NCBI RefSeq assembly: GCF_000949635.1
Contig: NZ_BAFN01000001.1
Span: 558,001 to 622,000 of the forward strand
DNA: 64,000 bases
From: Candidatus Brocadia sinica JPN1
GTDB lineage: Bacteria > Planctomycetota > Brocadiia > Brocadiales > Brocadiaceae
Reading direction: 5' to 3'
Below the pieces are notes generated by a model, which saw nothing but the letters and a program-made list of their open reading frames with translations, made no database searches and had not been told where the DNA came from. This document shows positions 16,235 to 34,394 of this stretch, piece after piece. Position numbers and translations under genes: made by a program. Each line of letters begins with the position of its first letter. The stretch's first letter is position 1.

Positions 16235-16619
16235 ATTTCAATCCCTTCTATTACAGGTCTTCATTCATACTGGCAGGGGGCTACAGATATTGCCATTTTT
16301 TATGTCGCAATCCCTTCTATTACAGGTCTTCATTCATACAATCGCAATAGACAGCATTACAAGGCTTTAGGCTTGTCGCAATCCCTTCTATTACAGGTCT
16401 TCATTCATACGAGGGGTTGCCGGTAGATGGTGGTTGCGCAACGTGTCGCAATCCCTTCTATTACAGGTCTTCATTCATACAAAAAGACCCTTGAAATTCG
16501 CACTTGGCCTACAAGTCGCAATCCCTTCTATTACAGGTCTTCATTCATACCCCGACCTAAAGCAAGTGGGGTGGGAGCAATGTGTCGCAATCCCTTCTAT
16601 TACAGGTCTTCATTCATAC
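16235..16619 (-). CRISPR. CRISPR array, six 36-nt repeats and five spacers
   Basis: Repeats at 16235-16270, 16304-16339, 16375-16410, 16445-16480, 16515-16550 and 16584-16619. On the plus strand each starts GTCGCAATCCCTTC and ends GGTCTTCATTCATAC. Spacers are 33, 35, 34, 34 and 33 nt. The first copy differs at its first bases (ATTT for GTCG), the normal sign of the leader-distal end. On the minus strand each repeat ends in ATTGCGAC, the same 8-nt 5' handle known from Thermus type III crRNAs. The array is therefore read on the minus strand, like the cas genes, with the leader on the cas2 side. Five copies are identical. Confidence 0.97.
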
Positions 16620-16721
16620 GGCACCCCTTTCCTTTCTCTTGTATTGACAAGTATTTACAAAATCGAGTTTTTACTATAGCGGACGTCCTAAAAGTTAGCC
16701 TGAAAATATTCCTGAAATATT
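16620..16721 (-). promoter_or_regulatory. CRISPR leader
   Basis: About 100 AT-rich bases between the cas2 stop and the first repeat in transcription direction. A -10-like TATAGT lies at 16673-16678 (minus strand). The upstream edge overlaps the tandem half-site motif at 16703-16723. Leader polarity agrees with the degenerate repeat at the other end. Confidence 0.65.
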
Positions 16722-16723
16722 TC
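16703..16723 (-). promoter_or_regulatory. Tandem 10-mer operator-like site, copy 1 (leader)
   Basis: On the minus strand half-site GAAATATTTC, one A, then GGAATATTTT. It matches copies 2 and 3 at 17 and 18 of 21 positions. It overlaps the cas2 stop codon and lies about 25-45 bases upstream of the leader -10-like box. Confidence 0.6.
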
Positions 16724-16997
16724 ATAAAAATATCTCCACTCCTTCCGGAACCCTGTCTCCCTGACCAAGCGCCACAAATTTACTACGAGATGGTAGTGGG
16801 TAAATCCGTATATCATCTTCGTTACCATCAATTATGTCTTTAAGTTTTTCCTTCAATTCCGTTAATTCCGGCCAGGCAAGTTTACAAAAAAACACCGAAT
16901 ACTGGATATGCGTGCCGATCCCCGAGAGCGTTTTAAAGACCTTCTTTAGCCTTTTTTCATTCGTAATGTCGTAGCAGACAATATAATTGCTCTTCAT
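16722..16997 (-). CDS. cas2: Cas2 (leader-adjacent copy)
   Basis: 91 residues with the Cas2 ferredoxin-like fold pattern: YIVCYDITNEKRLKKVFKTLSGIGTHIQYSVF, with the conserved Asp in strand one (YDI), then a C-terminal IYPLPSRS strand. Cas2 dimers bridge Cas1 dimers in the spacer integrase. It starts 14 bases after the degenerate cas1 gene and ends about 100 bases before the array, the usual end of an adaptation operon. It clearly differs in sequence from the second Cas2 at 19321. Confidence 0.92.
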   Translation of the reverse strand: MKSNYIVCYDITNEKRLKKVFKTLSGIGTHIQYSVFFCKLAWPELTELKEKLKDIIDGNEDDIRIYPLPSRSKFVALGQGDRVPEGVEIFL

Positions 16998-17011: not shown

Positions 17012-17848
17012 TTATAAATAATGCCTCAATTCCCCACCGAACCTCAGTTCCCTGATAAGCTCAAATATACCGTCAATAATATGCTCTGTCATGGTTACTA
17101 AAACGTCTTTCCTATTTTCAAAACGTACAGCTATTGCCTTTATATCTTCAGACGATATCCCTTTGCTTCTACGATGGCCAACGCCCCTTTTCCCACAAAA
17201 GAATTGAATGGATTGGATATCAATCTCGGGGCCAAGTATGTAGCAAATGTCCAGGGCAAGGCCAAAATCGCGCCTCCTGTGCATCACTCCCATATGAGGG
17301 TCGAGGTCAGACGATAGTAATTTGCCTACAACCATTTCCACAAAGAGGGCGGAAACGGCATTACGAATGAGTTGAAATATTTCATGATACGGCGATGTCG
17401 CATTATCTATTACTTGCTGATATTCTTGTTCTTTGAGACCGACCGTGATATAGTGATCCGGCATCTGCCTTTTCAAAAGCCGTTTCAGGACGTCAATCTG
17501 GACCCTCTGGCGATATGCCTTCAGAAAGGTCATAAACCGCTGGGTAGTATAATCCGACTCAAGGAATACCTTTTGATCTTTATACTGTTCCGGCAGATAC
17601 TGTTTATACGGCAGAGTTACCGCTATCTGGTTGCCCTTCCTGTCAAGGAATGTTACCGGAACATTATTTTGGGTAAAGAGGGTTATCAAACTGGTTTCCA
17701 GTTTAATATTCCCGGTAATGATCACCCGTTGAATCATCCTTGCAGGCACGCGCCTGCCGGACTTTCCCCCTTCCTTTACCACAAGGGAAGGGCCGTCTCT
17801 CATAACGTTGAGGGTCGTATTTTCATTCAGGTAAAGTGTTCTTTCCAT
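17012..17848 (-). CDS. Divergent Cas1 paralogue, probably catalytically impaired
   Basis: 278 residues. The N-terminal beta domain (LYLNENTTLNV..., VPARMIQRVIITGNIKLET, VPVTFLDRKGNQ) and the LDPHMGVMH segment show it is a Cas1. His190 of the metal site is kept, and Asp200 matches the first Asp. The metal-binding acidic residue three positions later (Glu244 in the neighbour, D-x-x-E) is Tyr203 here. No EG-A-x-x-Y glutamate helix is visible; the nearest candidate is Glu140 in LKEQE. About 40 residues of the usual C-terminal half are rearranged or absent. It overlaps the canonical cas1 by 26 bases, so the two are translationally coupled and may form a mixed complex. The alternative is a decaying duplicate. 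Confidence 0.85.
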   Translation of the reverse strand: MERTLYLNENTTLNVMRDGPSLVVKEGGKSGRRVPARMIQRVIITGNIKLETSLITLFTQNNVPVTFLDRKGNQIAVTLPYKQYLPEQYKDQKVFLESDYTTQRFMTFLKAYRQRVQIDVLKRLLKRQMPDHYITVGLKEQEYQQVIDNATSPYHEIFQLIRNAVSALFVEMVVGKLLSSDLDPHMGVMHRRRDFGLALDICYILGPEIDIQSIQFFCGKRGVGHRRSKGISSEDIKAIAVRFENRKDVLVTMTEHIIDGIFELIRELRFGGELRHYL

Positions 17849-18785
17849 CCATGATCCTCACTGAAATATCCCGTATCTTCCTGGCAATGTCTTTTCTCAC
17901 CGGTTCAACCCATGCTTCGTAAACCGGATAAAACTCCTTCCTGGCATCTTTCTTTAAATAAACGCCGTCATTCTCCTGCACGAAATTTTTGGGGGTATAT
18001 TTTCCATCTTTAAACATCTCCCACACGAATCGGTCTGCCATGGGTCGAAACGGTTCAATCAGGTCACAGGCAAGGGATTCACGCCCGTAATCAAAGCAAT
18101 GATAAAAGCCAATCGTGGGATCAAGCCCTGCAACCTGTATCTCCCTCACTGCTTCATAATGAATCAGCGTATAGCAGAGTGACAGCATTGCATTTACCGG
18201 GTCTTTCGGTGGCCTTCTGGTCCGGGTTTTAAACCCAAGGGACTCCGGGAACAGTTCGGTAAATGCGGAGAAATATGCATTTGAAGCAGCGCCCTCATAT
18301 CCTCTCAGACTCTCAAGGGACTCACATCCTGAGGTAATCCCCCTTAAAATATTCTCAAGAATACCAAAGACATTACAAAATGTCGCCTTCACATTGTCCC
18401 TACCCTTGATTTTTATAGCCTCTCCAAGAAATCTGCTTTGCTGCCCTATCTTTTCAATGATAATTTCTTTCGATACCGTTATAGCAAAATCATTGTCCAG
18501 GGACTTTTCGTATTGTTTGACCCTCAGCATGCCGTTATTATGGATGCGGCCGGTGAGGATGCCTCTGTATTGAAGCCCCCTGCCTGACAGGAATATAACG
18601 TTACAACCGTTGTCTGCAAGTTTGTGGAGTACACTTGTTTCTATCGTATTACTACCGGCTATTATTACCCGGTTGAGAGGCCTTATAGGAACGATGCCCT
18701 CCCTTTCCCCGTCCAGGTAAAAGGCGATTGATTCACCGTCGAGTTTTATATGATAACCCTTTCTGTCGATATATAAGGTGCCCAT
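17823..18785 (-). CDS. cas1: Cas1 integrase (canonical)
   Basis: 320 residues with a complete catalytic set: Glu164 in RGYEGAASNAYF, DPVNAMLSLCYTL, His229 in LDPTIGFYH, and Asp241/Glu244 in ACDLIEPFRPMAD. It is the metal-dependent integrase that joins new spacers into the array with Cas2. The C-terminus continues through the typical YLKKDARKEFYPVYEAWVEP segment. The gene overlaps the following divergent cas1 and belongs to the cas1-cas1-cas2 unit next to the array. The gap 5' of it holds three palindromic repeats. Confidence 0.95.
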   Translation of the reverse strand: MGTLYIDRKGYHIKLDGESIAFYLDGEREGIVPIRPLNRVIIAGSNTIETSVLHKLADNGCNVIFLSGRGLQYRGILTGRIHNNGMLRVKQYEKSLDNDFAITVSKEIIIEKIGQQSRFLGEAIKIKGRDNVKATFCNVFGILENILRGITSGCESLESLRGYEGAASNAYFSAFTELFPESLGFKTRTRRPPKDPVNAMLSLCYTLIHYEAVREIQVAGLDPTIGFYHCFDYGRESLACDLIEPFRPMADRFVWEMFKDGKYTPKNFVQENDGVYLKKDARKEFYPVYEAWVEPVRKDIARKIRDISVRIMDGKNTLPE

Positions 18786-19320: not shown

Positions 19321-19602
19321 TTAACCGAAATAAAAAAACTCCGGGTCTTTTGGAGGCACTGCTGCACCAAGGGTATGAGACCTGCTTCTCCCGTCCAGGG
19401 AAAAGATATGAATCCGGTCTGTACTTTCATCAATAATACTTGATACGCCGACAATAACCTCTCTCAGCTCGCCCTGTGTAAGGAAACACTCAAATACAGA
19501 CTTCTGGCCGCCCGTGCTGAAACCCTTCAGGAAATACCTTACCCGGTTAAGACGTTTGGATGTGCATATATCGTATGCCACAATATAAAGATCTCTTTGC
19601 AT
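19321..19602 (-). CDS. cas2: Cas2 (second copy)
   Basis: 93 residues: LYIVAYDICTSKRLNRVRYFLKGFSTGGQKSVFECFL carries the conserved strand-one Asp and helix, followed by the RIHIFSLDGRSRS strand. Cas2 family is clear. It lies about 535 bases upstream of the canonical cas1, separated by three palindromes, and 225 bases downstream of cas6. Two cas1 and two cas2 in one locus suggest either two adaptation modules brought together or a four-gene module. A 29-base hairpin (19607-19635) and an operator-like site (19643-19663) precede its start. Confidence 0.92.
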   Translation of the reverse strand: MQRDLYIVAYDICTSKRLNRVRYFLKGFSTGGQKSVFECFLTQGELREVIVGVSSIIDESTDRIHIFSLDGRSRSHTLGAAVPPKDPEFFYFG

Positions 19603-19642: not shown

Positions 19643-19663
19643 GAAATATTTCAGAAACATTCC
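19643..19663 (+). promoter_or_regulatory. Tandem 10-mer operator-like site, copy 2 (upstream of cas2/cas1)
   Basis: GAAATATTTC, one A, then GAAACATTCC on the plus strand, 41-61 bases upstream of the minus-strand cas2 start. It shares 18 of 21 positions with copy 3 and flanking TTTCTT...TTTTG bases too. Confidence 0.6.
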
Positions 19664-19827: not shown

Positions 19828-20841
19828 TCATCCTCCTTTGTGACCAAAGATCGTTGCTGTTTCATCATACGAGATTATGTATTTTCCCAGTCCAAAACTT
19901 GTTCCCTTTCCAACGTGGAGTATCTTTCCTGCCTCAATGAAAGGAGAAAAAGGCGAAATAGCGCCGGTATATACGATATTTCCTACGAACCCGCCGAGCT
20001 TCATCCTTGTATCCTGCCTTCGTGAGTACCGTTCCCAGTCATGCCATCTAAGGTTTGTTTCCTTTATACTTATTGTACGTGCCTTATCGATAAGCATGCG
20101 GTGATAGCCCTCATCTGCCGGACTTTTTTTACAGTGATAATGCCTGAGTAAAAACAGTCGTCTCAGGAGTTGTCTGATGAAGACATGAAATTCCAGGTCA
20201 ATCGTCAGTTTACCGTCATACTTGAGACGGGTAGGAGTGAGAAATCTCAAGGTAATTTCTTCAGGGGCATCATGTACGGAGTCGGAAACATTTTCCTCCA
20301 TTATGGCAAGGATAGACGGACGTAAGTCTATGTATTCTTCGCTGAAGGATTCGACTTTACGGGTTTTGGAACGGTAAATTGATTGCGTATCGCCCCGGGG
20401 GCTGACCGTATGCACCTTCTGAAGCTGGCAACTTCCCCTTCCCCTTCCAATGCCATTTTTCCCCAGCAGACCAAAGGTGTAAATAAAATAGGGCAGGTAT
20501 TGTATCGCATCGCCAATGAGTATGAGACCCATGGAAAATGTCTGTCCTGCGAGATACCGTTGTTTCTCTTCCTCAGGTGGTTCTATAATAAATGGATGGG
20601 GTATGGCATTTACCTTACCAAGGATGTTGGCTTCATCAGGAGAGTAAGATTCAAAGATATATGCATAGACACATCTTTGTTTGAGCAGGCAGTCACGGCA
20701 ATCCCCTTTCTTCAGGGCGCAGACAACCTTTTTGAACTGTGTGCCGAATGCCCCTCTGAAGGTTGACCCTTTGTATGAAGGAAGATATATTTCCTCTTCC
20801 GCCTCAAAAATAAAGGTAAAGCGTTTATAGGGTATCTTCAT
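19828..20841 (-). CDS. cas6: Cas6-type pre-crRNA endoribonuclease (DUF2276-like RAMP)
   Basis: 337 residues. It opens with a RAMP strand (YKRFTFIFEAEEEIYLPSYKGSTFRGAFG), then a Cys cluster (CALKKGDCRDCLLKQRC) typical of this Cas6 group, IIEPPEE, and a central GLLGKNGIGRGRG glycine-rich loop. It ends with ISPFSPFIEAGKILHVGKGTSFGLGKY, the G-rich C-terminal loop of Cas6. Type III systems use such a protein to cut the repeat and leave the 8-nt handle. It is encoded with the two CARF genes upstream and cas2/cas1 downstream on the same strand. Confidence 0.88.
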   Translation of the reverse strand: MKIPYKRFTFIFEAEEEIYLPSYKGSTFRGAFGTQFKKVVCALKKGDCRDCLLKQRCVYAYIFESYSPDEANILGKVNAIPHPFIIEPPEEEKQRYLAGQTFSMGLILIGDAIQYLPYFIYTFGLLGKNGIGRGRGSCQLQKVHTVSPRGDTQSIYRSKTRKVESFSEEYIDLRPSILAIMEENVSDSVHDAPEEITLRFLTPTRLKYDGKLTIDLEFHVFIRQLLRRLFLLRHYHCKKSPADEGYHRMLIDKARTISIKETNLRWHDWERYSRRQDTRMKLGGFVGNIVYTGAISPFSPFIEAGKILHVGKGTSFGLGKYIISYDETATIFGHKGG

Positions 20842-21001: not shown

Positions 21002-22315
21002 TTACGTAACTTTCATTGAATTACCTATGCTTTTTAAATCATTGGGAAACTGTATTAATTCAATTCTTTTCTTTTTGTCCGTTTTATATAAACTATCTAT
21101 CAGTTGTCGGAGCAGTTCGATGATTGCGGGGGAGATGTTGTTGTAGACATCACAAGCAATTGCTTTAAGTCCATGAGCAAAAAGACTCTCATTCCTGTAT
21201 TTGAGAAAGTCTTTTATCCTGTTTTTACATTTCTGGTGCCACGGATGAATAACAGGGTCGTTTAATTCTGACAGCAGTTCATAGCCCTGCATGAGACCTA
21301 TTTGTATTTTATTTTCTTCATTTCGGTGTTTTTCCAATTTTGTTTTAAATTCTTCCCTTAATGTAGATAGCTGTCCCAGTGCTATATTTCCTGTATCCTG
21401 ATTGTATTGGGCTTTAAGCCGTATTTGAGCCACAAGTTCCAATGACCGATATATCCGCCCAATTGCATCTTCATAACGACCCTGATTTGCCCTGCGCTCG
21501 GCATTAAAAAGAATATCTTCTGCAATAATATAACTTAAGACATTATTCTCAACATCGGTTTTTATCTTTTCAAGAGGAATTACATAGTCCACGAAATATT
21601 TTCTGTAGGGATTCAAGTATTGATACGCCGAGACGTGATCAAAGCGATCCCAAGCATCAAAGCCTTTGCATATGTTCAAATATGTTTGAATTTCCTGATT
21701 CTTCTCGTTGCTCAGGGAAAGTTTAATTGATGACTCCAGCAGGTTTATAGCGCCCGAAAAGTCAAATCTGGCGAGTAAAGATTCCGCCAACGCAAGATTT
21801 TTATTTGCCAGTGTGTCGTAAACTGCAATTGGTCTGATGTATTCGGTTTTGTCCGTCACTTTATCGAGATTTGCCCTCGTTCCGGCAACGAGAACAAATT
21901 CACAGGTACCGTCATCCAGAGCGGCAGAGGCAAGTCCGGCAGTCATGCTCTTTGTGCCGCCGGTATAATCGATAACTATTTTATCAGGATTAAGTCTCAA
22001 CCGTATTTCCGTTACTTTCTTTTTGCTTATCTGATAGCAGTCATTGAGATTATCAAAATCTTTTATCTTTACGCATTCCCACGAGCCATCTTTTAAATTA
22101 CACTGCGAAGGAATCCCCGGAAGAAAAGATTTTTTTGAGGGGTCGGTTTTATCCCTCACTTCTACTCTTTCGGTAATTTGAATATAAGACCCTTTTGTTG
22201 TTGGGAGGTCATCGGAACAGAGAAATACAATATAATCAGGTTTGTTATCACGTATCGATTTAACTACAGGTTCATGCGAACCGCCAACGGTAAGAATTAA
22301 GACCTTTTTCATCAC
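21002..22315 (-). CDS. CARF-HEPN protein, TIGR02710 family (Csm6-like RNase)
   Basis: 437 residues. The N-terminal CARF domain opens KVLILTVGGSHEPVVKSI and contains the family segment VIDYTGGTKSMTAGLASAAL, the cyclic oligoadenylate pocket region. A long helical middle follows, and then a HEPN domain with Arg374-x6-His381 (RNESLFAHG), the RNase active pair. The family is the TIGR02710 CRISPR accessory group. Predicted action: cleave RNA when Cas10 makes cyclic oligoadenylate. A paralogue lies immediately upstream (22765), sharing YTGGTK and the R-x6-H motif but quite different elsewhere, so the two may respond to different ligands or cleave different sites. Confidence 0.88.
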   Translation of the reverse strand: MMKKVLILTVGGSHEPVVKSIRDNKPDYIVFLCSDDLPTTKGSYIQITERVEVRDKTDPSKKSFLPGIPSQCNLKDGSWECVKIKDFDNLNDCYQISKKKVTEIRLRLNPDKIVIDYTGGTKSMTAGLASAALDDGTCEFVLVAGTRANLDKVTDKTEYIRPIAVYDTLANKNLALAESLLARFDFSGAINLLESSIKLSLSNEKNQEIQTYLNICKGFDAWDRFDHVSAYQYLNPYRKYFVDYVIPLEKIKTDVENNVLSYIIAEDILFNAERRANQGRYEDAIGRIYRSLELVAQIRLKAQYNQDTGNIALGQLSTLREEFKTKLEKHRNEENKIQIGLMQGYELLSELNDPVIHPWHQKCKNRIKDFLKYRNESLFAHGLKAIACDVYNNISPAIIELLRQLIDSLYKTDKKKRIELIQFPNDLKSIGNSMKVT

Positions 22316-22764: not shown

Positions 22765-23991
22765 TTATATATTTAATCTGGGAAATACTATTACGTCTTC
22801 TGCCCTGAATATGTTGAGATCCAGGATAAATTCCTTGAATTTCAGGTAGGTATTTTCACCTGCACAGTCAAATCCATGGACAAGATACGAATTGTTTCTC
22901 TGTGATTGAATCTGGCGGAATTGCGGTAACCGTTTATGAAATTCCTTACCCAGGTCATCCCCCAGCACTTCGAGTAATTCAAATGCGGTGCTTTGTGGTA
23001 TCTTTATCTTTCCATCTTTTTTGTCTTTGTATTTACTAATAAATGCATCCCTCACCTGCTGCGGTATTTTTTCCTCACTCACATTACTTGTATCTACCCC
23101 ATGTTTGTCCAGTAACCTTTCCTGGGCGAGCATTTCAACGACCCTGTAGAGCCGCACTATGGCGTCATCTATTTTTCCCTCGTCAAAGCGTCGTTCTGCG
23201 TTTGAGAATATATCCAGGATAAACAACCTGTCAGGCTGTCTTCGTTGTTGAGAAAGTAGTTCCAGCTGTGGTTTTAGCTGAAGGGTGGCCTTTGCAAACA
23301 ATCGTATTCTTTCGTCTTCTGTTTCCAAGAGTTCCTCTATCCGTGCCCTTTCAAATTTCCCCTTTGCGTCGCCGTGTCTGAACAGGTCCCAGTTGTAGTA
23401 ACCATCAATAAGAAAGCTCAATTTTTTAAATACCGTTTTGTATCTGGTGCTCTTTTCCAATGCTTCATCGGCCAACTCCTTCGCCGCCTTGAACTGGTTG
23501 GTATTAAACAAGAAGGATATCTTCTTCCGTTCATCTATGGCAAGAAAGTCCCAGGGGTTAACGCTCTTGCAGACCTTTTCCTTACCATTGATGACGATCC
23601 CCACACCACCCTTTGTTCTTTCTGCCCCTCCTACATACGAAAAGCTAAATCCGTGTGTAATGGCAGAAAGGGAGAGGGCGACGGACATATTCTTAGTCCC
23701 GCCGGTATAGTCCACAATAACCTCATCGCTGCGGTAGCCCTTTGACAACACACGTTTAACAGCCTCTTCCGCCTTGCCGAAGCAGTGGTAGAGGTCGTTG
23801 ACATCATCAGCGAGGGTTGTTTCGTTTTTTATGCTGTGCCCTGCTTCCTGTATCCCTTTTTTAATCTCCGGTACATAGTCGCAGGTATCCTGAGAGGCGA
23901 GGAAGGACACAAATTCCGGCCGGTATTCTGTAATGGATTTTATAATCGGCGCTGTCGTCCCGCCCACAGAAATTATCATAGCCCTGACCAT
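22765..23991 (-). CDS. CARF-HEPN protein, TIGR02710 family, second copy
   Basis: 408 residues. The CARF start is RAMIISVGGTTAPIIKSITEY, with VIVDYTGGTKNMSVALSLSAI and VGGAERTKGGVGIVINGKE in the ligand-binding domain. The C-terminal HEPN motif is Arg365-x6-His372 (RNNSYLVHG). It is organised like the neighbour at 21002, with a shared mid-region helix FSNAERRFDEGKIDDAIVRLYR (compare FNAERRANQGRYEDAIGRIYR). Predicted cyclic-oligoadenylate-activated ribonuclease acting with the type III-A effector. The intervening transposase remnant suggests the pair was split by insertion after duplication. Confidence 0.88.
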   Translation of the reverse strand: MVRAMIISVGGTTAPIIKSITEYRPEFVSFLASQDTCDYVPEIKKGIQEAGHSIKNETTLADDVNDLYHCFGKAEEAVKRVLSKGYRSDEVIVDYTGGTKNMSVALSLSAITHGFSFSYVGGAERTKGGVGIVINGKEKVCKSVNPWDFLAIDERKKISFLFNTNQFKAAKELADEALEKSTRYKTVFKKLSFLIDGYYNWDLFRHGDAKGKFERARIEELLETEDERIRLFAKATLQLKPQLELLSQQRRQPDRLFILDIFSNAERRFDEGKIDDAIVRLYRVVEMLAQERLLDKHGVDTSNVSEEKIPQQVRDAFISKYKDKKDGKIKIPQSTAFELLEVLGDDLGKEFHKRLPQFRQIQSQRNNSYLVHGFDCAGENTYLKFKEFILDLNIFRAEDVIVFPRLNI

Positions 23992-24038: not shown

Positions 24039-24070
24039 GCATGGACAAACAAAGTTTGTCCATGCCACCC
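24039..24070. repeat. Island palindrome (ATGGACAAAC variant)
   Basis: GCATGGACAAAC-AAA-GTTTGTCCATGC then CACCC. The paired C-to-T change keeps the stem intact, a compensatory difference from the CACGGAC form. Confidence 0.8.
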
Positions 24071-24130
24071 TTCCAGTCAATGAAGAGATTTTCTCCCTAT
24101 CCACATACTTTTCTACTTCTTCCACCTTTT

Positions 24131-24162
24131 TGGGTGGCACTGACAAACTCTGTTTGTCAGTG
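24131..24162. repeat. Island palindrome (CTGACAAAC variant)
   Basis: GGGTGGCACTGACAAAC-TCT-GTTTGTCAGTG. Followed after about 35 bases by the next copy, the same pair arrangement as at 19149/19215. Confidence 0.8.
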
Positions 24163-24197
24163 TTTTATCATCCGTATTAATGCACGTATTCGAATAA

Positions 24198-24229
24198 GCA
24201 CGGACAAACAAAGTTTGTCCGTGCCACCC
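24198..24229. repeat. Island palindrome (ACGGACAAAC type)
   Basis: GCACGGACAAAC-AAA-GTTTGTCCGTGC then CACCC, just downstream of the transposase stop. Confidence 0.8.
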
Positions 24230-24244
24230 TTTTTTGCTATTTAT

Positions 24245-24829: not shown

Positions 24830-24847
24830 TTTTTTATGCGTTCAACA

Positions 24848-24880
24848 GGGTGGCACTGACAAACTCTGTTTGTCAGTGTT
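24848..24880. repeat. Island palindrome (CTGACAAAC variant)
   Basis: GGGTGGCACTGACAAAC-TCT-GTTTGTCAGTG, 20 bases upstream of the transposase start on the minus strand. Confidence 0.8.
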
Positions 24881-24912
24881 GCACATTCCATATCAATGTG
24901 TGTATTCAAACA

Positions 24913-24971
24913 TGCATGGACAAACGATCCCCGTTCAAGGCGTACGGTGACATGGTTTGTCCATGCCACCC
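24913..24971. repeat. Island palindrome, long-loop form
   Basis: GCATGGACAAAC, then GATCCCCGTTCAAGG / CGTACGGTGAC inner bases, then GGTTTGTCCATGCCACC. Outer arms perfectly complementary. Confidence 0.75.
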
Positions 24972-24978
24972 AATTTAA

Positions 24979-25383
24979 TTATCTAAAAGTATAGAGATTT
25001 AATTCAATTTCCTTCCTGATAACATCAAAGTGTTTATCAAGGGTAAGGAGTTTTACCTTATTTGAGCTCGCCATTACTGAAATGTAACAGTCTGCAAGCC
25101 CGACTATTTCCTCTTTCAGGCGCAACGAGAAAGACAATTCACCTGCTTTTTCCCATAGTTCGGTGGAATCAGGGAGAAAGTCAAATACGTGTAAGAATTC
25201 CTTTAACACATCGAGTTCCTTCTGTGACTTTGCGCCCTGTATTAACTCGGCAAGCACAATACCAGTACAGCAAATGCGACTGCTGTCTATCAATTCCAGA
25301 ACGATTTTATGGTAAGGGACTTTCTTCCTGAAAAACTCAATCCACGCAGAGGTGTCAACGAGGATCTTATCCGAGCCTTTCAT
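24979..25383 (-). CDS. vapC: VapC-type PIN-domain toxin
   Basis: 134 residues with the PIN active-site acids: Asp10 in ILVDTSAWIEFF, Glu46 in VLAELIQG, Asp98 in GLADCYISVMA, and a later LLTLDKHF aspartate. PIN toxins are Mg-dependent RNases that cut tRNA or rRNA and are held in check by a cognate antitoxin. The start overlaps the end of the antitoxin gene by 17 bases, the usual coupled order. It sits inside the CRISPR island between the transposase and csm5, as many addiction modules do in defence islands. Confidence 0.9.
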   Translation of the reverse strand: MKGSDKILVDTSAWIEFFRKKVPYHKIVLELIDSSRICCTGIVLAELIQGAKSQKELDVLKEFLHVFDFLPDSTELWEKAGELSFSLRLKEEIVGLADCYISVMASSNKVKLLTLDKHFDVIRKEIELNLYTFR

Positions 25384-25576
25384 CTTCGTGCCTGAGCTTA
25401 TCTGCGGACTTTATAAATTCCATCTTGCCTGCCATAGATTTTATTCGTTCCATTTTTTTTAGCCGTATTTCGTCTTTAATAGCCTTTATTACAGCCTCCG
25501 TCTTGCTTTTTGCCTCAATGGTCGACATTAATTCATCTATCAAGGAATTGGGTAATGTTATGGTTGTTCTAGACAT
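25367..25576 (-). CDS. vapB: Ribbon-helix-helix antitoxin (VapB-type)
   Basis: 69 residues from MSRTTITLPNSLIDELM, the classic beta-strand of an RHH DNA-binding antitoxin, followed by SKTEAVIKAIKDEIRLKKMERI and a charged C-terminus expected to wrap the toxin. The start at 25576 is chosen because the strand starts there; the upstream extension to 25633 is hydrophobic and not family-like. It is expected to repress its own promoter in the region 25577-25700. Confidence 0.85.
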   Translation of the reverse strand: MSRTTITLPNSLIDELMSTIEAKSKTEAVIKAIKDEIRLKKMERIKSMAGKMEFIKSADKLRHEDERLG

Positions 25577-25709
25577 ATATATTCTCCACAATAGTATGCT
25601 TATAACTAGCATAAATATTTTACAAATATTCATGCCAACTTACAAGTGGTATTTATGCTGATTCGTTTTTATAATTAACGCCAAAGGCATAGAAATTTTA
25701 AACTTGCAA

Positions 25710-25768
25710 GGGTGGCACGGACAAACCATGTCCCAGGATGTCTTGAACTGGGATCGTTTGTCCGTGCA
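25710..25768. repeat. Island palindrome, long-loop form, opposite orientation
   Basis: GGTGGCACGGACAAACC...TCCCAG...CTGGGATCGTTTGTCCGTGC; same outer arms as 19215 and 24913 but inverted. Confidence 0.75.
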
Positions 25769-25845
25769 GAATTCATTCCTTGTCGTTTTCGAATCCATTA
25801 ATGATTTTTTAAGTGCTTTAGTTCGTTTTCCAGCTTCATAAAGTT

Positions 25846-26236: not shown

Positions 26237-27506
26237 TTAATTTTCTATTATCAATTTTACCCATCCCAAAGTATCCTGCTCGTTATTTGATAAGTTTACA
26301 ATACGCCGTGTCTTTAGGAAATTACCGCTGTAGCTTGTGTTTTTCGTGGCATGACAAAAGACATTATTATAAAGGTCTTTATCTTTATCTTTAACAAGCA
26401 ACCCTATCGTGAGACTAAGATATCCTTCGTTTTTGCCTATTCGGATAATGGGACTCGTTGGGATGTTTTGTTGCATTATATATTGAAGTATTGAAACTAT
26501 TTTTGGTTTATTGAGTTTTGAAAAATAGCCTATTTCTTCATAAAGAAGCCTATCTGTAAACTCATAACAACACTGTAATAGATTTTTTATGTCTGAAACC
26601 ACCCATTTTTGTTCATGGGTAAAACCAAGTTTATCAAGTATTGTCTTATTATTCTCTAATTTAAAACCCTGGCAGGTAAAGACCGTATCTTTTTTGCAAA
26701 GTTCCTGAAAAAGGGGGAAACCTCTGCTTATCCCCGTTACCTCAAAGTTTGAGACAAATAAACAATTAATGGATGCTATTAACTCTGTATCTCCTATATG
26801 GAGTAATTTAAGAAGGTCGTATTTTGCATCATTTTTGTCAATGACTCTAAAAAGTTTATTTTGTAAGGTATCTTCTATTTTCCCCATTTCGTTAGTAAGT
26901 TTCTTTTTTACATCATTAACCCATCTTCCTTTTTGTCCTGATATTTGTTGTAACTCTTTTCTATAGTTATTCCCGAAATTTTCTAACTCTTTTTTTAAAA
27001 TATCTCCAATGACCTTCATCTTGTAAGAGATGATAAGCTACAGCAGTTCTTATCCCACCTTTTATCTCCGTACCAGGAATGTATGACTTATTGTTTTGCT
27101 TGGTAAAACAGTCAATATCTACATTGCTAAAAATTTTCGTTTCTGCTTTGACAGAATAGAGGAAATTATTATTGAACTTGTTTTTTGTAGTCGTATCTCT
27201 TATAGAATTTTCGATAAATTCTTTTAAACTTAACTTTTTTTGTGCATCTCTAAGGGTTTGGTTTATTTTTCTCTTTTCCTCTTCGTCTCTTTCTTTTCTT
27301 TTTTGCGTTTCTAATCGTTCTATTTCTCCAATGTTCTGTTCAAGCCACAACATAAATCTTTGTTTTTGTTGAGTTGTAAGATTTTCCATAATCTTATTTG
27401 AATCATATAACAAAACATTTTCTCTATTTGCTATATATGCCAATCCATTATATTTTTCACCATTCCCAATATGAACCGGTGATAAAGTTTTAATTTGAAG
27501 TCTCAT
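26237..27506 (-). CDS. csm5: Csm5 RAMP subunit, frameshifted at an A7 run
   Basis: The N-terminal part (27506 to about 26970) starts MRLQIKTLSPVHIGNGEKYNG after a good GGAGG seven bases upstream. It includes YIPGTEIKGGIRTAVAYHLL, the Csm5/RAMP opening and Gly-rich segment. The C-terminal part (26237-27019) is in another frame and ends DTLGWVKLIIEN, the Csm5 end. The frames meet in TTTTAAAAAAAGAG near 26995; removing one A gives a continuous protein of about 420 residues (YFKKELENFG). Csm5 caps the 3' end of the Csm-crRNA complex. The break may be an indel, a sequencing error or slippage at the A run. Confidence 0.8.
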
Positions 27507-28546
27507 TTTGAACCTCCAATATTGCCAAACACAGGAAAAGCGAATCCATACTGCCTTATTTTTTGACCACCTATTTCTTTGACTACAGGACATTGACCAT
27601 AGAATGGTTTTCTTTCTTTAGCCTCAAAACAAGAACCTTCTTTCAGATATATAACCTTTGATTTCCAGATATCCTCACCCTTAAATTCTGCCTCAGAGTC
27701 TACTTTAGAACGATACGGAAATATTGCATAAAACATGGATTTACTCTCTGGGTTTATTTCAGCAATATCAGGAATATATCGGGAAAGGGTGATAAAATTA
27801 CAAGCAGTATCATTTCCTACGGAAATTGTATTTAATGTCTCTATCTTAAATCTTCCCTTCCCTACTGAACGATTGCCGCCTATACCCTTGTCTTCCAGGT
27901 AGCGAAAGATTGGCTTAAAAGATTCAATATTATCCGTCTTTATCAGGAAATGCAGTTTAAATGCAGGACTTGCAAAGTATTCCTCCTGATAAAAGGTCTG
28001 CCCCTCCTCGCCAGTAGACATGGTAAGCCGATCAATAGCATTTTTTTGTACCAATTCACTTTTCAGTAAAGGTTCTTTCTCTACAAAATTGAACCCTTCT
28101 AATTCCTTTTTGCTCATTAATAGCTTCCCTTTGAGTTTCACTTCGTCATTAAGATATTCCTGAAATAATATCTTTTCTGATACGTTATTCAAAAATCTGC
28201 TAAATAGGGCAAATGAAAAGTATTCAGATTTTTTAAATTTCTTATACTTAGTGATAATTTCAACCTTTTCTTTTTTTATCTTTGCCATTTCATAAATATC
28301 AGATGCAGAAAGGCCAGGCGATGTAGGTTTCGGGAAAAAGAAAATGTCGTTATTACATTCAATATAAGGGAAAGAAGAAGAAAGTATAAATTCCGGCTTT
28401 TCCTGATAGTTTTCTAAAATTGTTGCAAGTTTGGTTTCGTTATATATCCTCTTTATCCCCCAGCAAATGGCACCGAACAGGGTATCAGATGAAGGAAATC
28501 CTGAAAAAGGTGACACTGGACTAAGTTTTATTTGATAGTTTTTCAT
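27503..28546 (-). CDS. csm4: Csm4 RAMP subunit
   Basis: 347 residues. Opens with YQIKLSPVSPFSGFPSSDTLFGAICWGI, the Csm4/Cmr3-type first strand with (S)DTLFGA. Contains YASPAFKLHFLIK and the glycine-rich GIGGNRSVGKGRF loop. Csm4 binds the 5' handle of the crRNA and contacts Cas10. The start overlaps csm3 by 26 bases and has GAGGG upstream; the stop overlaps the csm5 start by four bases, giving tight translational coupling. Confidence 0.92.
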   Translation of the reverse strand: MKNYQIKLSPVSPFSGFPSSDTLFGAICWGIKRIYNETKLATILENYQEKPEFILSSSFPYIECNNDIFFFPKPTSPGLSASDIYEMAKIKKEKVEIITKYKKFKKSEYFSFALFSRFLNNVSEKILFQEYLNDEVKLKGKLLMSKKELEGFNFVEKEPLLKSELVQKNAIDRLTMSTGEEGQTFYQEEYFASPAFKLHFLIKTDNIESFKPIFRYLEDKGIGGNRSVGKGRFKIETLNTISVGNDTACNFITLSRYIPDIAEINPESKSMFYAIFPYRSKVDSEAEFKGEDIWKSKVIYLKEGSCFEAKERKPFYGQCPVVKEIGGQKIRQYGFAFPVFGNIGGSK

Positions 28547-29375
28547 CTTTACCCTCTATTGTTTTTAATAAACTATCAAAACTTTTATAAATATCTCTGG
28601 CATTTTTACAATTATCGTTCACTGGTACTACTAATTCATCCACACCTTTAGTATAGTAAGCCAGGCTTCGTTTCATAATCTTAATATTTTCAAATACCAC
28701 CTTACCAGAACCTCTGCTTCCACTCCCACCAAGTGCACTGTCCTCAAGGAGCATCATACCTTCAAAGACCTTTTTCAGTTTTTGAATGTCGTCATTCTTG
28801 TAAAGGTCAAAGAGCATCTCAACTTCAAAAACAGAATCGGCAGGCACCCTTTCCATTGACCGCGGCATTGCTTCCGACGTTAGCCTGTCTATTACATTTT
28901 CACTCTTTACTTCTGTATAGATTTTTTCGCCAAGGTATGTTTTCCATGTTTCAATTGTTCCTTTCCTCTGCTCTTCTGGCAAAATCTTCCCATTATCTTC
29001 ACACAGCCCTTTTGGAAAACTGTCACGTATTGTAAGACGTGTAGGTTCTTTAACTGACGTTGCAGCAGAACAGCCATATATAAAACAAATGTCACAATTT
29101 CCACATTCGCATAGTTTGCCTTTCCACTTTCCATTTTCTTGTTTAAAATTTACTTTATTATTAGCCCACTCTAACAAACTTCTCATTTTCCCTTTTAAAG
29201 AAGAACCAGGAATATACGGATACCCTGTAATCGGGTCTTTGATTACCGGATTATCCATACCACCAATTTCAAAACCTTCGTCAGTACCTCCAATATGAAG
29301 TCCTGTAAGACAACGTAAATCTGCTTTAATAATATATTTCCCTGAAAATTCGTAATTGCTCTTTTCTTCAGTCAT
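28521..29375 (-). CDS. csm3: Csm3 backbone RAMP nuclease
   Basis: 284 residues: TGLHIGGTDEGFEIGGMDNPVIKDPITGYPYIPGSSLKGKMRSL. Asp41 in GGMDNPV is the target-RNA cleaving aspartate of Csm3 and the GSSLKGKMR stretch is invariant in the family. A Cys-rich insertion (CECGNCDICFIYGC) and a final GGSGSRGSGKV loop follow. Several copies form the Csm filament and cut bound RNA every six nucleotides (known for Csm3). Strong GGGGGA ribosome site upstream. Confidence 0.95.
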   Translation of the reverse strand: MTEEKSNYEFSGKYIIKADLRCLTGLHIGGTDEGFEIGGMDNPVIKDPITGYPYIPGSSLKGKMRSLLEWANNKVNFKQENGKWKGKLCECGNCDICFIYGCSAATSVKEPTRLTIRDSFPKGLCEDNGKILPEEQRKGTIETWKTYLGEKIYTEVKSENVIDRLTSEAMPRSMERVPADSVFEVEMLFDLYKNDDIQKLKKVFEGMMLLEDSALGGSGSRGSGKVVFENIKIMKRSLAYYTKGVDELVVPVNDNCKNARDIYKSFDSLLKTIEGKDEKLSNKT

Positions 29376-29378
29376 TTT

Positions 29379-29792
29379 CTAATCCCCCTTTTCCATTTTA
29401 TGATAGGCAAGTACCGCAGAGAGAAAGTCCACAAAACAATTAAAATCCTTAACTGTTGGTATTTTTTCAGGATTGAGACATGTCTTCATCAAGTCATAAA
29501 AGTTTTTACTGATGAGATTTCTCCCTAGCGCATAAGCAAGTTCAGGCATTAAGAGATAGAGTTCAGCTTTTTCTACTTTAAAGTCATTTTTTTTGCCTTT
29601 ATAGTTTGCCTGTATCTGTTTAATATGACCAAAAAATTTTCGCAATTGTGTAACTTTCATTTTTTCTCGTACGTCTTTTGCTATTATATGTGCAGCGCCA
29701 TTCTCTTTTGCGTAAAATTCAGGGTCAATAGTCGAAAATGTTTTAAGAGTCTGAATATTTTGCTTCACGTTATCAATAGTTATTTCTGGCAT
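29379..29792 (-). CDS. csm2: Csm2 small subunit
   Basis: 137 residues, all helical: DVREKMKVTQLRKFFGHIKQIQ and LYLLMPELAYALGRN are typical of Csm2, the small subunit that forms the belly of the type III-A complex. It is placed between cas10 and csm3 with gaps of three bases on both sides. The GGGGGAG ribosome site lies seven bases before the start. No catalytic residues expected. Confidence 0.9.
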   Translation of the reverse strand: MPEITIDNVKQNIQTLKTFSTIDPEFYAKENGAAHIIAKDVREKMKVTQLRKFFGHIKQIQANYKGKKNDFKVEKAELYLLMPELAYALGRNLISKNFYDLMKTCLNPEKIPTVKDFNCFVDFLSAVLAYHKMEKGD

Positions 29793-29795
29793 TTT

Positions 29796-32195
29796 TTACT
29801 CCCCCTTTCTTAATTTCAGTAAGGCATAACTTGTCGGTATTTGAATATGTTTAAAATAACAATTTTTATCTGTAATAAGTGTTTCTTTTAATTTATTTCT
29901 TAGTTCATCGTCTTTAACATTCCTTGCCAACTGATAAATAATGGCAGGGATAAAATTGGGGTCTTGTCCACTTTTGTATTGTTTGTGTTTTCTTAACAAT
30001 TCATGAACAAAACCCCTGGGCAGCTTTTTCCTGGAATTCTCACTGTTAATGTAACTGTGTAAATCCTCGCCAAAATCGAGCAACTCTTTTACACATACTC
30101 CACCATTAACAATCCATTCTACCGTATCCCCAAAGAGAGTTATTCGTTTTCTGCCATTATCTTTAGAAGTATTCAATTGTTCGCCAGCAGCCTTTGCCGC
30201 AAGGCTTATTGGATATTTGGGTTTGCAGAGGAATATCCCGGCAGAAATGTTTATATCGGGATTATGGCAGGTATAAGCCTTGAATTCATCCTGTATTTTT
30301 AGTGCAAGTTTTGGCATTTCACTCCATGGACCAATTATCAGGAGGTCGTCACCGCCTGAATAAACAGTATAAAAAATCTGTGTTACCTTGTCTCTATGCT
30401 CCCATTTTGATTCACTTCTCCATTGTTCAAAGATTTCATTACATATCTTATTCAGATAACCACCAAAAAACATGTCCATCGAACGGCTTAACGCAGCTAT
30501 CCTTGATATGGACTTTCTTTTGGAATGTTGTTCTTCCTCAAGTCCAAGAGTAAAGATAAGCCCAAGGTGGTCAACGTCCATCTTTAGTATTCCAAGTCGT
30601 TTATCTCCAATACTTGTATCGGCTATAATTTCAAAACTCAAGACATTGCCTTTTTTTACTTGTTTATCTTCGTCGGTCGGGTCGTTGCCGATTGAAAAAT
30701 CTGCATTTGCCAAAGGTGCCGTGTTTCCTATGAAACGAAAACCAGTTTGAAGCTTATCAAGTTTATTTATCTTTTCGATAGCCAAAATCTTTTTCGATTT
30801 TAGCAAATTTTCGGTTATCAGCTTGTCGTTTTCCAGCAAGTAAACTGTACCAAACTCACCAAAAGGAACGGGTAAACCATCTATATTTTCCAAATCCTTG
30901 TTCCTAAAAATCAGATACGAAGTATTTGGAAGCTTGTTGCCTATATTTTTGTGTAAATTGCAAAGTTCACATGGCTCATCATTTGTTACTGTACTGATAC
31001 CACAAGCCTTACAGACCTTAATTACGTTCCTGTCGGAAGTTTCTTCAATCCAGAAGGTAGCGTCTGTAAAAGAAGACAAAAATTTCTTCTTTTTGGCAAT
31101 CGTCAATTTATCATTTAACTTCAACAATAAATCGCCGTAGCCTTTTAATGTGTCTTGATTTGCTTCAACACTTTCAAGCACCAATCCCAGTTCACCACCA
31201 TACATTTTGAAGAGCCATTTATTGACATCGGTCTGAACACTTTTTAATATTTGTTTTGATTCTCCAGTATTGGGAAGGAGCAATTCAAACCTTCCACCTC
31301 CACTGTACAGGATATTTGTGCTAAATAAACTAACCTGTTCTATGATATGCCTTGCAATTACATCCTGAAGCAAAAGTAAATAAAACGACCGTCCTCTCAG
31401 CATCTTTGAAATACCTTTAACTCCCTGTGCCTTTGTAATCCGGTAAATAAAGTTCTGAATGCCTGATATATCGCCTCCAACAATGAGAAATTTATTATCA
31501 GAAGATTTATCCATTTTTTCGCAGTGATAAAGGCACCCGGTAATGGCGGCAGTAGTTTTAGCATGGTCAAAAAGTGAAATATCGGGTTCATCCTTGTATG
31601 TAGCGCTAGGAATACACCAGGTATATTTTTGGAGGATGGAATAAAGAATATTTAGATAAGAAGAAATGCTATATGTTGGAATACTTTTAACTTCTTTTTC
31701 AAAACTTTCCCATAAATTTTTATATTCGTCTTTCAAACTTTGCCTGGGAAGTTTATCATTTGGAAATAACTTGCTTTTTTCAAGAGACAGCGTTTCTAGA
31801 CGGTAGGCAAAATCATTTGTATTTTTAGTATTATTACCCAAAGATATTTGTTCAAAAACTGATAAAAGCCGTTCTTTGTCAGGATCGCCAGTCTTTTCTT
31901 CATCATCAAGACTTATTCTATCCATACCAGCAGACAAGGCATCTGCAAGGGTAATTATGTCTGCATGATCATGATGTGTATTTATTGCGGAAGCTATTTT
32001 TTCTTTTTCTTCCTCTCCCAATAAAATCCGTATCTTTTCTGCAAAAAGATTTTGAAAACATTCCAAACCTAAAGAAGCGTGATTCCTTGATTTCCGTGCT
32101 TTTTCGTCCAGTCCTCTTTGATAAAATTTTCCTATATCATGCAACAATGCCGCAAGCACAACCGTCTGATATTCCCTTTTCTGTTTTTCGTCCAT
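29796..32195 (-). CDS. csm1: Cas10/Csm1, type III-A signature protein
   Basis: About 799 residues. N-terminal HD nuclease: LLHDIGKF with His19/Asp20, and NTHHDHAD. First palm domain with GGDISGIQNFIYRI, a zinc-binding CKACG...CELC segment at about 400-430, then the second palm with the GGDD cyclase motif (YSGGDDLLI, about residue 614). The D4 helical tail closes the protein. Both active centres look intact, so ssDNA cutting and cyclic oligoadenylate synthesis are predicted. An ATG at 32207 is possible, but GGAGA lies at the right distance before 32195, so that start is preferred. It heads the csm1-2-3-4-5 operon. Confidence 0.96.
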   Translation of the reverse strand: MDEKQKREYQTVVLAALLHDIGKFYQRGLDEKARKSRNHASLGLECFQNLFAEKIRILLGEEEKEKIASAINTHHDHADIITLADALSAGMDRISLDDEEKTGDPDKERLLSVFEQISLGNNTKNTNDFAYRLETLSLEKSKLFPNDKLPRQSLKDEYKNLWESFEKEVKSIPTYSISSYLNILYSILQKYTWCIPSATYKDEPDISLFDHAKTTAAITGCLYHCEKMDKSSDNKFLIVGGDISGIQNFIYRITKAQGVKGISKMLRGRSFYLLLLQDVIARHIIEQVSLFSTNILYSGGGRFELLLPNTGESKQILKSVQTDVNKWLFKMYGGELGLVLESVEANQDTLKGYGDLLLKLNDKLTIAKKKKFLSSFTDATFWIEETSDRNVIKVCKACGISTVTNDEPCELCNLHKNIGNKLPNTSYLIFRNKDLENIDGLPVPFGEFGTVYLLENDKLITENLLKSKKILAIEKINKLDKLQTGFRFIGNTAPLANADFSIGNDPTDEDKQVKKGNVLSFEIIADTSIGDKRLGILKMDVDHLGLIFTLGLEEEQHSKRKSISRIAALSRSMDMFFGGYLNKICNEIFEQWRSESKWEHRDKVTQIFYTVYSGGDDLLIIGPWSEMPKLALKIQDEFKAYTCHNPDINISAGIFLCKPKYPISLAAKAAGEQLNTSKDNGRKRITLFGDTVEWIVNGGVCVKELLDFGEDLHSYINSENSRKKLPRGFVHELLRKHKQYKSGQDPNFIPAIIYQLARNVKDDELRNKLKETLITDKNCYFKHIQIPTSYALLKLRKGE

Positions 32196-32273
32196 AGTGT
32201 TCTCCATTATTTATTCATTTCCAGGCAAAAGTTCAGTAGACAGCGAAGGCACAAAGATAGCAAGGATTAGATT

Positions 32274-32333
32274 ATGCACGGACAAACGATCCCCGTTCAA
32301 GGCATACGGGGATATGGTTTGTCCGTGCCACCC
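32274..32333. repeat. Island palindrome, long-loop form
   Basis: GCACGGACAAACGATCCCCG... and ...CGGGGATATGGTTTGTCCGTGC then CACCC; arms and inner CCCCG/CGGGG stem perfect. It lies in the probable csm1 5' untranslated region. Confidence 0.8.
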
Positions 32334-32422
32334 TGTTATCAATTTAAAATTCACATTTTATGCGTCCTCTGCGGCTAATCACTTCTATATTTTTACCACA
32401 ATCCGTTAAAGACACAAAATAA

Positions 32423-32443
32423 GAAACATTTCAGGAATATTCC
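32423..32443 (+). promoter_or_regulatory. Tandem 10-mer operator-like site, copy 3 (upstream of csm1)
   Basis: GAAACATTTC, one A, then GGAATATTCC on the plus strand. Each 10-mer is close to palindromic, the second perfectly. About 230 bases upstream of the csm1 start, in the gap after the CARF-winged-helix gene. Confidence 0.6.
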
Positions 32444-32592: not shown

Positions 32593-33738
32593 TTATCCTA
32601 TCACCATTTTCCCCTTCTCCAGCCTTAATCCATACTGCGTACTCCCATAGGCACCGATAGACGTTATCGTATAAAAGGGGACATGTGTTTTGTCCCGAAT
32701 ACCATCTTCGATTTTCCTTCTTACCTTACTGATAACCTGCCGTAGTATTTTTGAAGAGATTCCGCCCCGTTTCCCATACTTTTCATAAAGCTCCCCACCC
32801 TTCAAAGAATCCTTCCCAAAGATCCTTTCATAACATGCAATAAAGGCATTCAATCCTTCCCTTCCCGTCAAATACCCAACTGAGGTATAACAATCAGTGC
32901 ATTCGAGACAATATTTTCTTTCGGGATGCGGGCAGTGGCTAAGCTTTCGCTCCATGAGTATTATGTAAAGGGATAGCTCCATTGGTGTGAAATCAATAGT
33001 CCGGTCACCGATTTCAAGCGACCTGTCGCTCAGATTTACCCTGAGAGGTTCCTGCATCAGCGCCGTATCTATCCCTTCCTGTCCCTGGCGGACAAGTTCT
33101 CTAAAGTTATTACTGCCCAGTCGTAATTTTTCCTTCAGGCGGATAAACGGCAGCTCTGCCAACTGAACACCAGCCATATCGGTGCTTATTTTTTTCTCCT
33201 TTCCATCAGGCATCCTGCATAGTATCAGTTTCGGCTTTCTGGGAGGATAGAAGAAGTCGGGATTACTTTCAAATTCCGGACTTACCAGGACATGATACAG
33301 TTTATCCCACGGCCTGCCAAAGAGCTGCAAGGCGCCGCCAAGATAGAACCCCATGGTCTTGCGGCCCCCGGCAATAGAACAATGAAGCCGTATTGTTACG
33401 TCACGAGCCTTTTCTCTGATAAATCCCGTTATGATATCCCCGGCTGCCTCGTTCTCTTCGTTATCTCTTATATCCTGCAATGGGACGTCATGGGAATTCT
33501 TTATCACGATAAGGCAATCTTCGGTAAAGGAGATTCCGGGAAGTCTATATTCCTCTATGAGTCGCTTGAGCATGCCTTGCCTGATGAGCGTATCGGCAAT
33601 CAGTTGTTTGCCATGCGAGGTGGTAATGATATAGAGTTCTTTAACAAATACAGGTGGGATATTTTTTGATAGCGCGTAAATTGTCTCGGTAACAATCTGA
33701 GGGGTAGCGCCTGCTACGCAGATAAGGATGTCTTTCAT
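32593..33738 (-). CDS. CARF protein of the NE0113 family (TIGR02584) with C-terminal winged helix
   Basis: 381 residues. The N-terminal CARF half opens ILICVAGATPQIVTETIYAL and has the family block HCSIAGGRKTMGFYLGGALQLFGR then VLVSPEFESNPDFFYPPR, diagnostic of the NE0113 group. From about residue 225 it looks like an OmpR/PhoB-type winged helix: LEIGDRTIDFTPMELSLYIIL, then a Cys-containing insertion, a recognition helix region ISSKILRQVISKVRRKIEDG, and the wing YTITSIGAYGSTQYGL. The CARF half would bind cyclic oligoadenylate and the tail DNA. No nuclease motif is seen. It lies upstream of csm1 on the same strand and is the best candidate regulator of the locus. Confidence 0.85.
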   Translation of the reverse strand: MKDILICVAGATPQIVTETIYALSKNIPPVFVKELYIITTSHGKQLIADTLIRQGMLKRLIEEYRLPGISFTEDCLIVIKNSHDVPLQDIRDNEENEAAGDIITGFIREKARDVTIRLHCSIAGGRKTMGFYLGGALQLFGRPWDKLYHVLVSPEFESNPDFFYPPRKPKLILCRMPDGKEKKISTDMAGVQLAELPFIRLKEKLRLGSNNFRELVRQGQEGIDTALMQEPLRVNLSDRSLEIGDRTIDFTPMELSLYIILMERKLSHCPHPERKYCLECTDCYTSVGYLTGREGLNAFIACYERIFGKDSLKGGELYEKYGKRGGISSKILRQVISKVRRKIEDGIRDKTHVPFYTITSIGAYGSTQYGLRLEKGKMVIG

Positions 33739-33965: not shown

Positions 33966-34109
33966 TAATATAGCTAGCTCGTTGAGATGATATGATTTAT
34001 ACATTTTTGTTGATTTTGTAAGGTTAATTTAATTCAAAAAATACAAAGAATATTATCGATAAGATATACTCTAAAATGCTCAGAAAATGTGAATTTTAAT
34101 TAATAACAG

Positions 34110-34141
34110 GGTGGCACGGACAAACTTTGTTTGTCCGTGTT
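34110..34141. repeat. Island palindrome (ACGGACAAAC type)
   Basis: GGTGGCACGGACAAAC-TTT-GTTTGTCCGTG, identical stem to 22370. Confidence 0.8.
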
Positions 34142-34241
34142 GAACTTGCACGAGATTATTTATGAATTGTTCATTTTGAAATTTGGATAGACAATACAAG
34201 TCCGATCATTGCAAGTACAAAGCATTATGCAGTATTGCAAA

Positions 34242-34274
34242 AACACGGACAAGCTATGCTTGTCCGTGCCACCC
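34242..34274. repeat. Island palindrome (ACGGACAAGC variant)
   Basis: CACGGACAAGC-TAT-GCTTGTCCGTG then CCACCCC. A paired A-to-G / T-to-C change preserves the stem. Confidence 0.8.
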
Positions 34275-34394
34275 CGTTAGATCATAGTTACAATGTATCA
34301 AGTTTATAAATCACAAATTGTGAGCCTCCGGTATATATTCAGCATTTTACTGCGCTTTATCGCCACCTTTCCCAAGCGCAGTCTTGGGAAAGGC

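Follow-up and report, generated by a model that had tools for sequence, protein, structure and literature searches.

A CARF protein with an OmpR-like tail as a candidate regulator of the type III CRISPR-Cas island in Candidatus Brocadia sinica

Among CARF proteins, a classification of which was reportedly published in NAR in 2020, the archaeal Csa3 proteins are the closest described parallel to the protein considered here. Csa3a and Csa3b combine an N-terminal CARF domain with a C-terminal winged helix and act on adaptation genes and cmr genes, and Csa3a also acts on a leader motif (PMC4333418; PMC7480081; PMC9456107). Csa3a, described as MarR-like, activates adaptation genes (PMC4333418). Csa3b binds an analogue of cyclic oligoadenylate (cOA), represses adaptation and activates cmr (PMC7480081), and the Csa3 of S. 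solfataricus is a cA4 binder without ring nuclease activity (PMC8844856). Further, NE0113 proteins were predicted as transcription regulators in 2014 (PMC4012209), and the 2025 classification counts transcriptional regulators among the cOA effectors (PMC12669027).

The window analysed here, a whole stretch of 64,000 nucleotides, comes from Candidatus Brocadia sinica JPN1, an anammox planctomycete with a genome of 4.08 Mb (G000). It holds a type III CRISPR-Cas island whose minus-strand order, between 33738 and 16304, is CARF-OmpR, cas10-csm2-csm3-csm4-csm5 (split), vapBC, a REP-associated transposase, two Csm6-HEPN genes, cas6, cas2, cas1, cas1', cas2' and the array (Table 1). The neighbouring Cas10 retains the GGDD motif that a sequence-only reading had called intact (YSGGDDLLIIG). 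The first protein of the island probably shares with Csa3a and Csa3b the order of CARF domain and winged helix, the latter suggested here by profile and a weak model. Unlike Csa3, it is bacterial, its CARF domain is of the NE0113 type, its tail is OmpR-like with a Cys4 insertion, and a single 21-bp site recurs before three outputs. It is best read as a bacterial counterpart of archaeal Csa3, and is probably a cOA-sensing activator of the whole type III island that works via the 21-bp sites.

Table 1. Features of the type III CRISPR-Cas island, by position in the window
Feature	Position	Strand	Basis or sequence
CARF-OmpR protein gene	32593..33738	minus	open 381-aa ORF, CARF profiles, orthologues
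CARF domain, Cas_NE0113 type, ~residues 1-206	33121..33738	minus	PF09623, TIGR02584
OmpR/PhoB-like winged-helix domain (likely), ~residues 231-381	32596..33048	minus	hhalign, fold comparison, weak Trans_reg_C
Predicted recognition helix, SSKILRQVISKVRRKIEDG region	32698..32754	minus	hhalign alignment and tail model
Cys4 insertion C-x7-C-x2-C-x2-C	32890..32934	minus	invariance in aligned domains
21-bp site upstream of cas10-csm operon	32423..32443	minus	GGAATATTCCTGAAATGTTTC
cas10/csm1, intact GGDD	29796..32207	minus	TIGR02578 1.7e-195; translation
csm2, csm3, csm4, csm5 (two frames)	26237..29792	minus	profile matches
REP-associated tyrosine transposase	24245-24829		
Csm6-type protein with HEPN	22765..23991	minus	PF09670 3.8e-40
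Csm6-type protein with HEPN	21002..22315	minus	PF09670 5.4e-30
cas6	19828..20841	minus	PF10040 9.6e-20
21-bp site 40 bp upstream of cas2 (cas2-cas1-cas1'-cas2')	19643..19663	minus	GGAATGTTTCTGAAATATTTC
cas2	19321..19602	minus	PF09827 2.6e-15
cas1	17823..18785	minus	PF01867 1.3e-79
cas1' (divergent second cas1)	17012..17848	minus	PF01867 5.4e-15, N-terminal part only
cas2' (second cas2)	16722..16997	minus	PF09827 1.9e-21
21-bp site in CRISPR leader, 83 bp before first repeat	16703..16723	minus	GAAATATTTCAGGAATATTTT, one mismatch
CRISPR array, five clear repeats	16304..16619	minus	GTATGAATGAAGACCTGTAATAGAAGGGATTGCGAC (minus strand); degenerate copy precedes 16304

Several other traits of the island were observed. 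The gene cas1' overlaps cas1 and is followed by cas2'; on inspection it lacks the GxEG stretch of cas1, and a Cas1-Cas1' pairing is possible. In csm5 (26237-27593), two overlapping frames meet near a TTTTAAAAAAAG run, which may reflect a pseudogene, a sequencing error or a programmed frameshift. REP-like GGGTGGCACGGACAAAC palindromes are repeated at 24025-25782, 32261-32334 and 34105-34279, near the transposase. The GGCACGGACAAAC repeats resemble REP elements of the REP-associated transposase and were set apart from the 21-bp sites.

The CARF protein and its C-terminal tail

The CARF-OmpR ORF is a real gene, because it matches family profiles and has orthologous ORFs with 78-82% identity in relatives, the closest named carriers' species being Ca. 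Kuenenia hertensis, Ca. Loosdrechtia aerotolerans and Ca. Jettenia ecosi. The proposed reading frame is open throughout and holds all the strings quoted from it (SIAGGRKTMGFYLGG, DFTPMELSLYIIL, CPHPERKYCLECTDC, SSKILRQVISKVRRKI and TITSIGAYGSTQYGL). The NE0113-type CARF block that had been assigned to its N-terminus is recovered by both PF09623 (Cas_NE0113; E=7.6e-44, residues 12-206, 150.4 bits against a cut-off of 23) and TIGR02584 (E=1e-70, residues 4-205, 238 bits against 80.65), and membership of the Cas_NE0113/CARF5 family extends to a full-length match with the PADLOC model CARF5--CARF (E=4e-106 across residues 1-379). Viral and phage sequence collections yielded no relatives. A frameshift breaks the ORF in G026, whose 21-bp sites are nonetheless retained, which counts against a regulatory link. 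On a Vibrio casei plasmid (L017, 10001-13771), an NE0113-type CARF protein precedes genes for an ADP-ribosylglycohydrolase and a metallophosphoesterase; the 21-kb stretch covered there lists no further cas gene.

The NCBI name of TIGR02584, 'CRISPR-associated ring nuclease Csm6', would make the protein a ring nuclease or Csm6-like effector. Of its two motifs, GAT (residues 10-12) and SIAGGRK (residues 121-127), the former fits the GxS/T motif tied to ring cleavage (PMC8844856), and cleavage could go together with regulation. As in Csm6/Csx1 effectors, a CARF sensor lies by type III genes; unlike in those effectors, profile search detected no HEPN RNase domain, Cas_NE0113 being the sole domain found. 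The C-terminal halves of six orthologues share no RX4-6H pair, and the island already holds two HEPN Csm6 proteins; we regard a ring nuclease or Csm6-like effector as very unlikely.

The sequence-only reading had placed an OmpR-like winged helix in the C-terminal tail, and this tail resembles OmpR/PhoB response regulators in its winged-helix profile and strand-helix order. In hhalign, a profile of 13 tail domains matched a set of four E. coli OmpR-type domains at 92.9% (E=3.7e-7, 74 columns), and single OmpR-type targets at 58.6, 1.1, 77.9 and 73.0%; the maximum among 99 decoy pieces, each a single sequence, was about 1.5-1.6%. With smaller alignment subsets the value ranged from 18%, for the three standalone proteins, through 58% and 72% to 81%, so the outcome hinges on alignment breadth. 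The Pfam Trans_reg_C profile (PF00486) reached 14.3 bits, below its gathering cut-off of 26.2, and a match to PmrA was weak (0.0084).

Structure prediction pointed in the same direction at low confidence. The full-length model, from three sequences, was too poor for use (pLDDT 46). The tail-only model (pLDDT 57) shows strands, a helix, further helices, a long helix and a C-terminal hairpin in that order. VIA-align comparison of this model placed OmpR/PhoB/CadC/ToxR-type domains at all of ranks 1-28 of the 33 listed (Z 5.9-3.5; next row 2.6), with no MarR-type rows among those 33, which leaves room for a MarR-type winged helix; the top seven Foldseek rows were CadC, PhoB, BaeR, NsrR and CovR, with a best E of 0.46. 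An OmpR-like fold is likely, and we assign the CARF plus OmpR-like architecture with high confidence. The protein differs from OmpR/PhoB regulators in its CARF sensor, in its Cys-rich insertion, in its sub-threshold Trans_reg_C score and in the lack of a receiver domain, none being found by profile search at its N-terminus.

The Cys-rich insertion noticed earlier consists of C269, C277, C280 and C283, which are invariant in 7/7 aligned C-terminal domains, three of them merely 27-30% identical, and it is a probable metal site. The four cysteines are missing from four gammaproteobacterial relatives. They are kept in three standalone tail proteins without CARF (L012:1057-1665, L013:1432-1947 and L016:1483-1983; open frames of 167-207 aa), which come from two genomes of another family of the order and have no recognised cas neighbours in the short stretches covered. 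The existence of such standalone Cys4 proteins suggests that the tail is a module also used on its own. Searched over 392 genomes of the phylum, the tail profile matched at least eight, a lower bound because G006 and G039, matched in another search, were not among them.

The 21-bp sites and their placement

The DNA around the gene supplies the strongest evidence. The three 21-bp sites that the sequence-only reading had mentioned all exist in the window. Their pattern, GRAAYRTTYCNGRAAYRTTYC, consists of two 10-bp half-sites with an 11-bp period. Tandem sites with an 11-bp period are likewise used by OmpR/PhoB regulators. Shuffles of the window give a chance expectation of 0.02-0.09 matches. Under a PWM built from 20 non-window sites, with L045 left out as a copy of L042, the sites of the window score 30.5, 27.7 and 26.1; leaving aside an offset, overlapping match at 16714, the next place reaches 9.2 (25612, near vapB). 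Six random 64-kb strings had PWM maxima of 6.9-22.0, so a lone match scoring near 20 carries little weight. Downstream of the CARF gene, GAAATATTTCTGAAATGTTTC forms a conserved footprint amid mostly unalignable intergenic DNA; it aligns in 7/8 loci (L042 and L045 looking identical) and is missing from L002.

Sites precede cas10 in six genomes besides the window (G013 lacks one there), cas2 in the window, G015, G026, G022, G025 and G021, and vapB in G013 and G021. Leader sites were found at eight arrays in seven genomes. With a site before effector genes, adaptation genes and the array, the protein probably switches the whole island together. The mapped sites keep a single orientation relative to transcription and lie just upstream of a -35-like sequence: TTG stands at +6 to +8 past the site in 15/16 non-leader sites, and TAACTTTT follows leader-type sites in 9/9 cases. 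The -10 assignment downstream is looser than that of the -35-like element. Activators that bind next to RNA polymerase, on its upstream side, are typically arranged in this way. From orientation and position, activation of all three outputs appears the most likely sign of regulation, and it is moderately favoured.

The same protein and sites could act with the opposite sign, as resting repression lifted by the alarm or as a shut-off tightened by the ligand. Csa3b binds adaptation promoters and represses acquisition, and a cOA analogue strengthens its binding (PMC7480081), so the sign could be reversed in CARF-OmpR as well; site position alone is compatible with either. However, the sites are placed ahead of the -35-like element and not over the start, and the mapped ones keep one orientation, which makes repression an unlikely reading.

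A second alternative concerns the leader, where the site would serve spacer integration, the protein positioning Cas1-Cas2 with transcription control secondary. Such a role would suit the near-fixed spacing of the leader site, which lies 83 bp from the first repeat in seven of the eight mapped arrays and 84 bp in the other. The Csa3a of Sulfolobus recognises a leader-distal motif (-143 to -94) and modulates Cas1 (PMC9456107). However, cas10 and cas2 also have this element in front of them, at places where integration is not expected, and we regard a primary role in integration as improbable to a similar degree.

Co-occurrence of the protein and the site

Exact sites were present in 8/8 protein-carrying genomes and 0/25 non-carriers among the 33 family genomes searched (G000 2, G006 1, G013 2, G015 2, G021 5, G022 3, G025 4 and G026 4), and the relatives' cas2 and leader sites had played no part in making the pattern. 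All but one of the 23 exact sites lie inside CRISPR islands, the exception being G026:C1:50969. One-mismatch matches occur in 9/25 non-carriers, and at up to one mismatch the backwards pattern gave 5 matches in the 33 genomes against 44 for the forward pattern. The hypergeometric probability of the distribution is 7.2e-8, or 4.9e-6 among Cas10 carriers and 0.006 within genera, values that ignore relatedness and the possibly mis-binned contig of G006. The eight carriers are not independent, and seven are left if G006 is discounted; its contig C157 (L045) looks identical to the Jettenia-like G022 in aligned flanks and was probably mis-binned or lately transferred.

Because the protein co-occurs with one operator-like site, a regulatory role is strongly favoured, and CARF-OmpR quite probably acts on the 21-bp sites themselves. 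However, protein and sites share one island, so their co-occurrence is partly expected and co-inheritance alone could produce it. Another factor, in or outside the island, might then bind the element and the CARF protein act otherwise; cas1', for instance, is likewise limited to carriers (7/8, and none of the other genomes among the 33). Against a different binder, the exact site is missing from non-carriers that have Cas10, Cas1 or near-identical repeats. Cas10 scores over its cut-off in 21/33 genomes, 13 of them non-carriers, and Cas1 in 25/33, 17 of them non-carriers; in the non-carriers G004 and G008, whose repeats are near-identical, the best match in the leaders has at least five mismatches. 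VapB, the other DNA-binding candidate noticed in the islands, is ruled out by its distribution: it was not found in G022, G025 and G026, each with 3-4 exact sites, and 73-86% identical copies occur in six genomes without exact sites. Binding by another factor is improbable, more so than either a reversed sign or an integration role, and we retain CARF-OmpR as the candidate binder.

Some loci count against regulation by CARF-OmpR: no site was found beside its gene in G013 or at several Cas10 genes elsewhere in carrier genomes. The site was also not found around the standalone tail genes (none at up to two mismatches, 3/3 loci), and nothing convincing lay near the four gammaproteobacterial relatives (at up to three mismatches, one match each in two of the four). 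The results at these last two groups of loci mark the site as a lineage-specific trait.

As a mechanism, we propose that CARF-OmpR is a one-component transcription factor of the type III island. Its CARF domain would bind cOA produced by Cas10, a ligand we consider likely, and its OmpR-like winged helices would bind the 21-bp element as a head-to-tail dimer. The ligand-bound protein would then activate the effector operon, the adaptation operon and the array leader, and the alarm would thereby be coupled to increased effector, crRNA and spacer acquisition.

Exchange of effector cassettes and its meaning

The genes behind the site vary among carriers. Cas10 beside the CARF gene in L001, L003, L043 and L044 is only ~29-36% identical to that of the window. 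Behind the site, G022 and G006 carry the first 27 csm1 codons (85% identity), and in G022 a type III-B set, cmr1-cmr2-cmr3-cmr4, comes next. In G021, one site lies ahead of a nucleotidyltransferase/HEPN pair and the next ahead of cas10. The cas10, csm2 and csm3 genes of the window have 77-90% protein identity to those of G003, a genus mate without protein and site. At the DNA level its Csm cassette is 84% identical to that of G003, the similarity setting in at 32219, which is 12 bp ahead of the cas10 start codon. From these comparisons, the promoter with the site and the effector genes have separate histories, effector cassettes (other III-A types and a III-B Cmr set) having been swapped while protein and site stayed.

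Two neighbouring arrangements were also observed. In L044 (8180-9108), a HEPN/nucleotidyltransferase pair next to the CARF gene has a 21-bp site of its own in front of it. Directly before the CARF gene, a small ORF or stretch similar to Cas6 over the N-terminal third of that protein occurs in L043 (10089-10475), where it overlaps the CARF gene start, and in the same place in L001, L003, L042 and L045; it is missing in the window.

New here are the putative regulon, which is unusually clear, the OmpR-like tail and the cassette swapping, regulation by NE0113 proteins having already been predicted in 2014. Target sites, a regulon and an OmpR-type affinity were not met with in the passages of that account consulted (PMC4012209), and a literature search in which subscription journals were thinly covered found no published account of this CARF-OmpR regulon. 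Within the same coverage, the experimental cases of cOA feedback on immune-system transcription found in print are archaeal Csa3-type proteins. A named protein, 21-bp sites and three outputs put the question of bacterial cOA feedback within direct experimental reach, and the cassettes that nature has exchanged behind one site offer ready-made comparisons. We give even weight to the broader idea that a bacterial cOA sensor ties the alarm to effector, crRNA and memory via a single operator, forming a regulator-plus-site chassis for swappable cassettes (several III-A, one III-B and one HEPN/nucleotidyltransferase pair). If CARF-OmpR is an activator, effector, guide and memory would all rise upon infection, a point relevant to type III spacer acquisition during attack.
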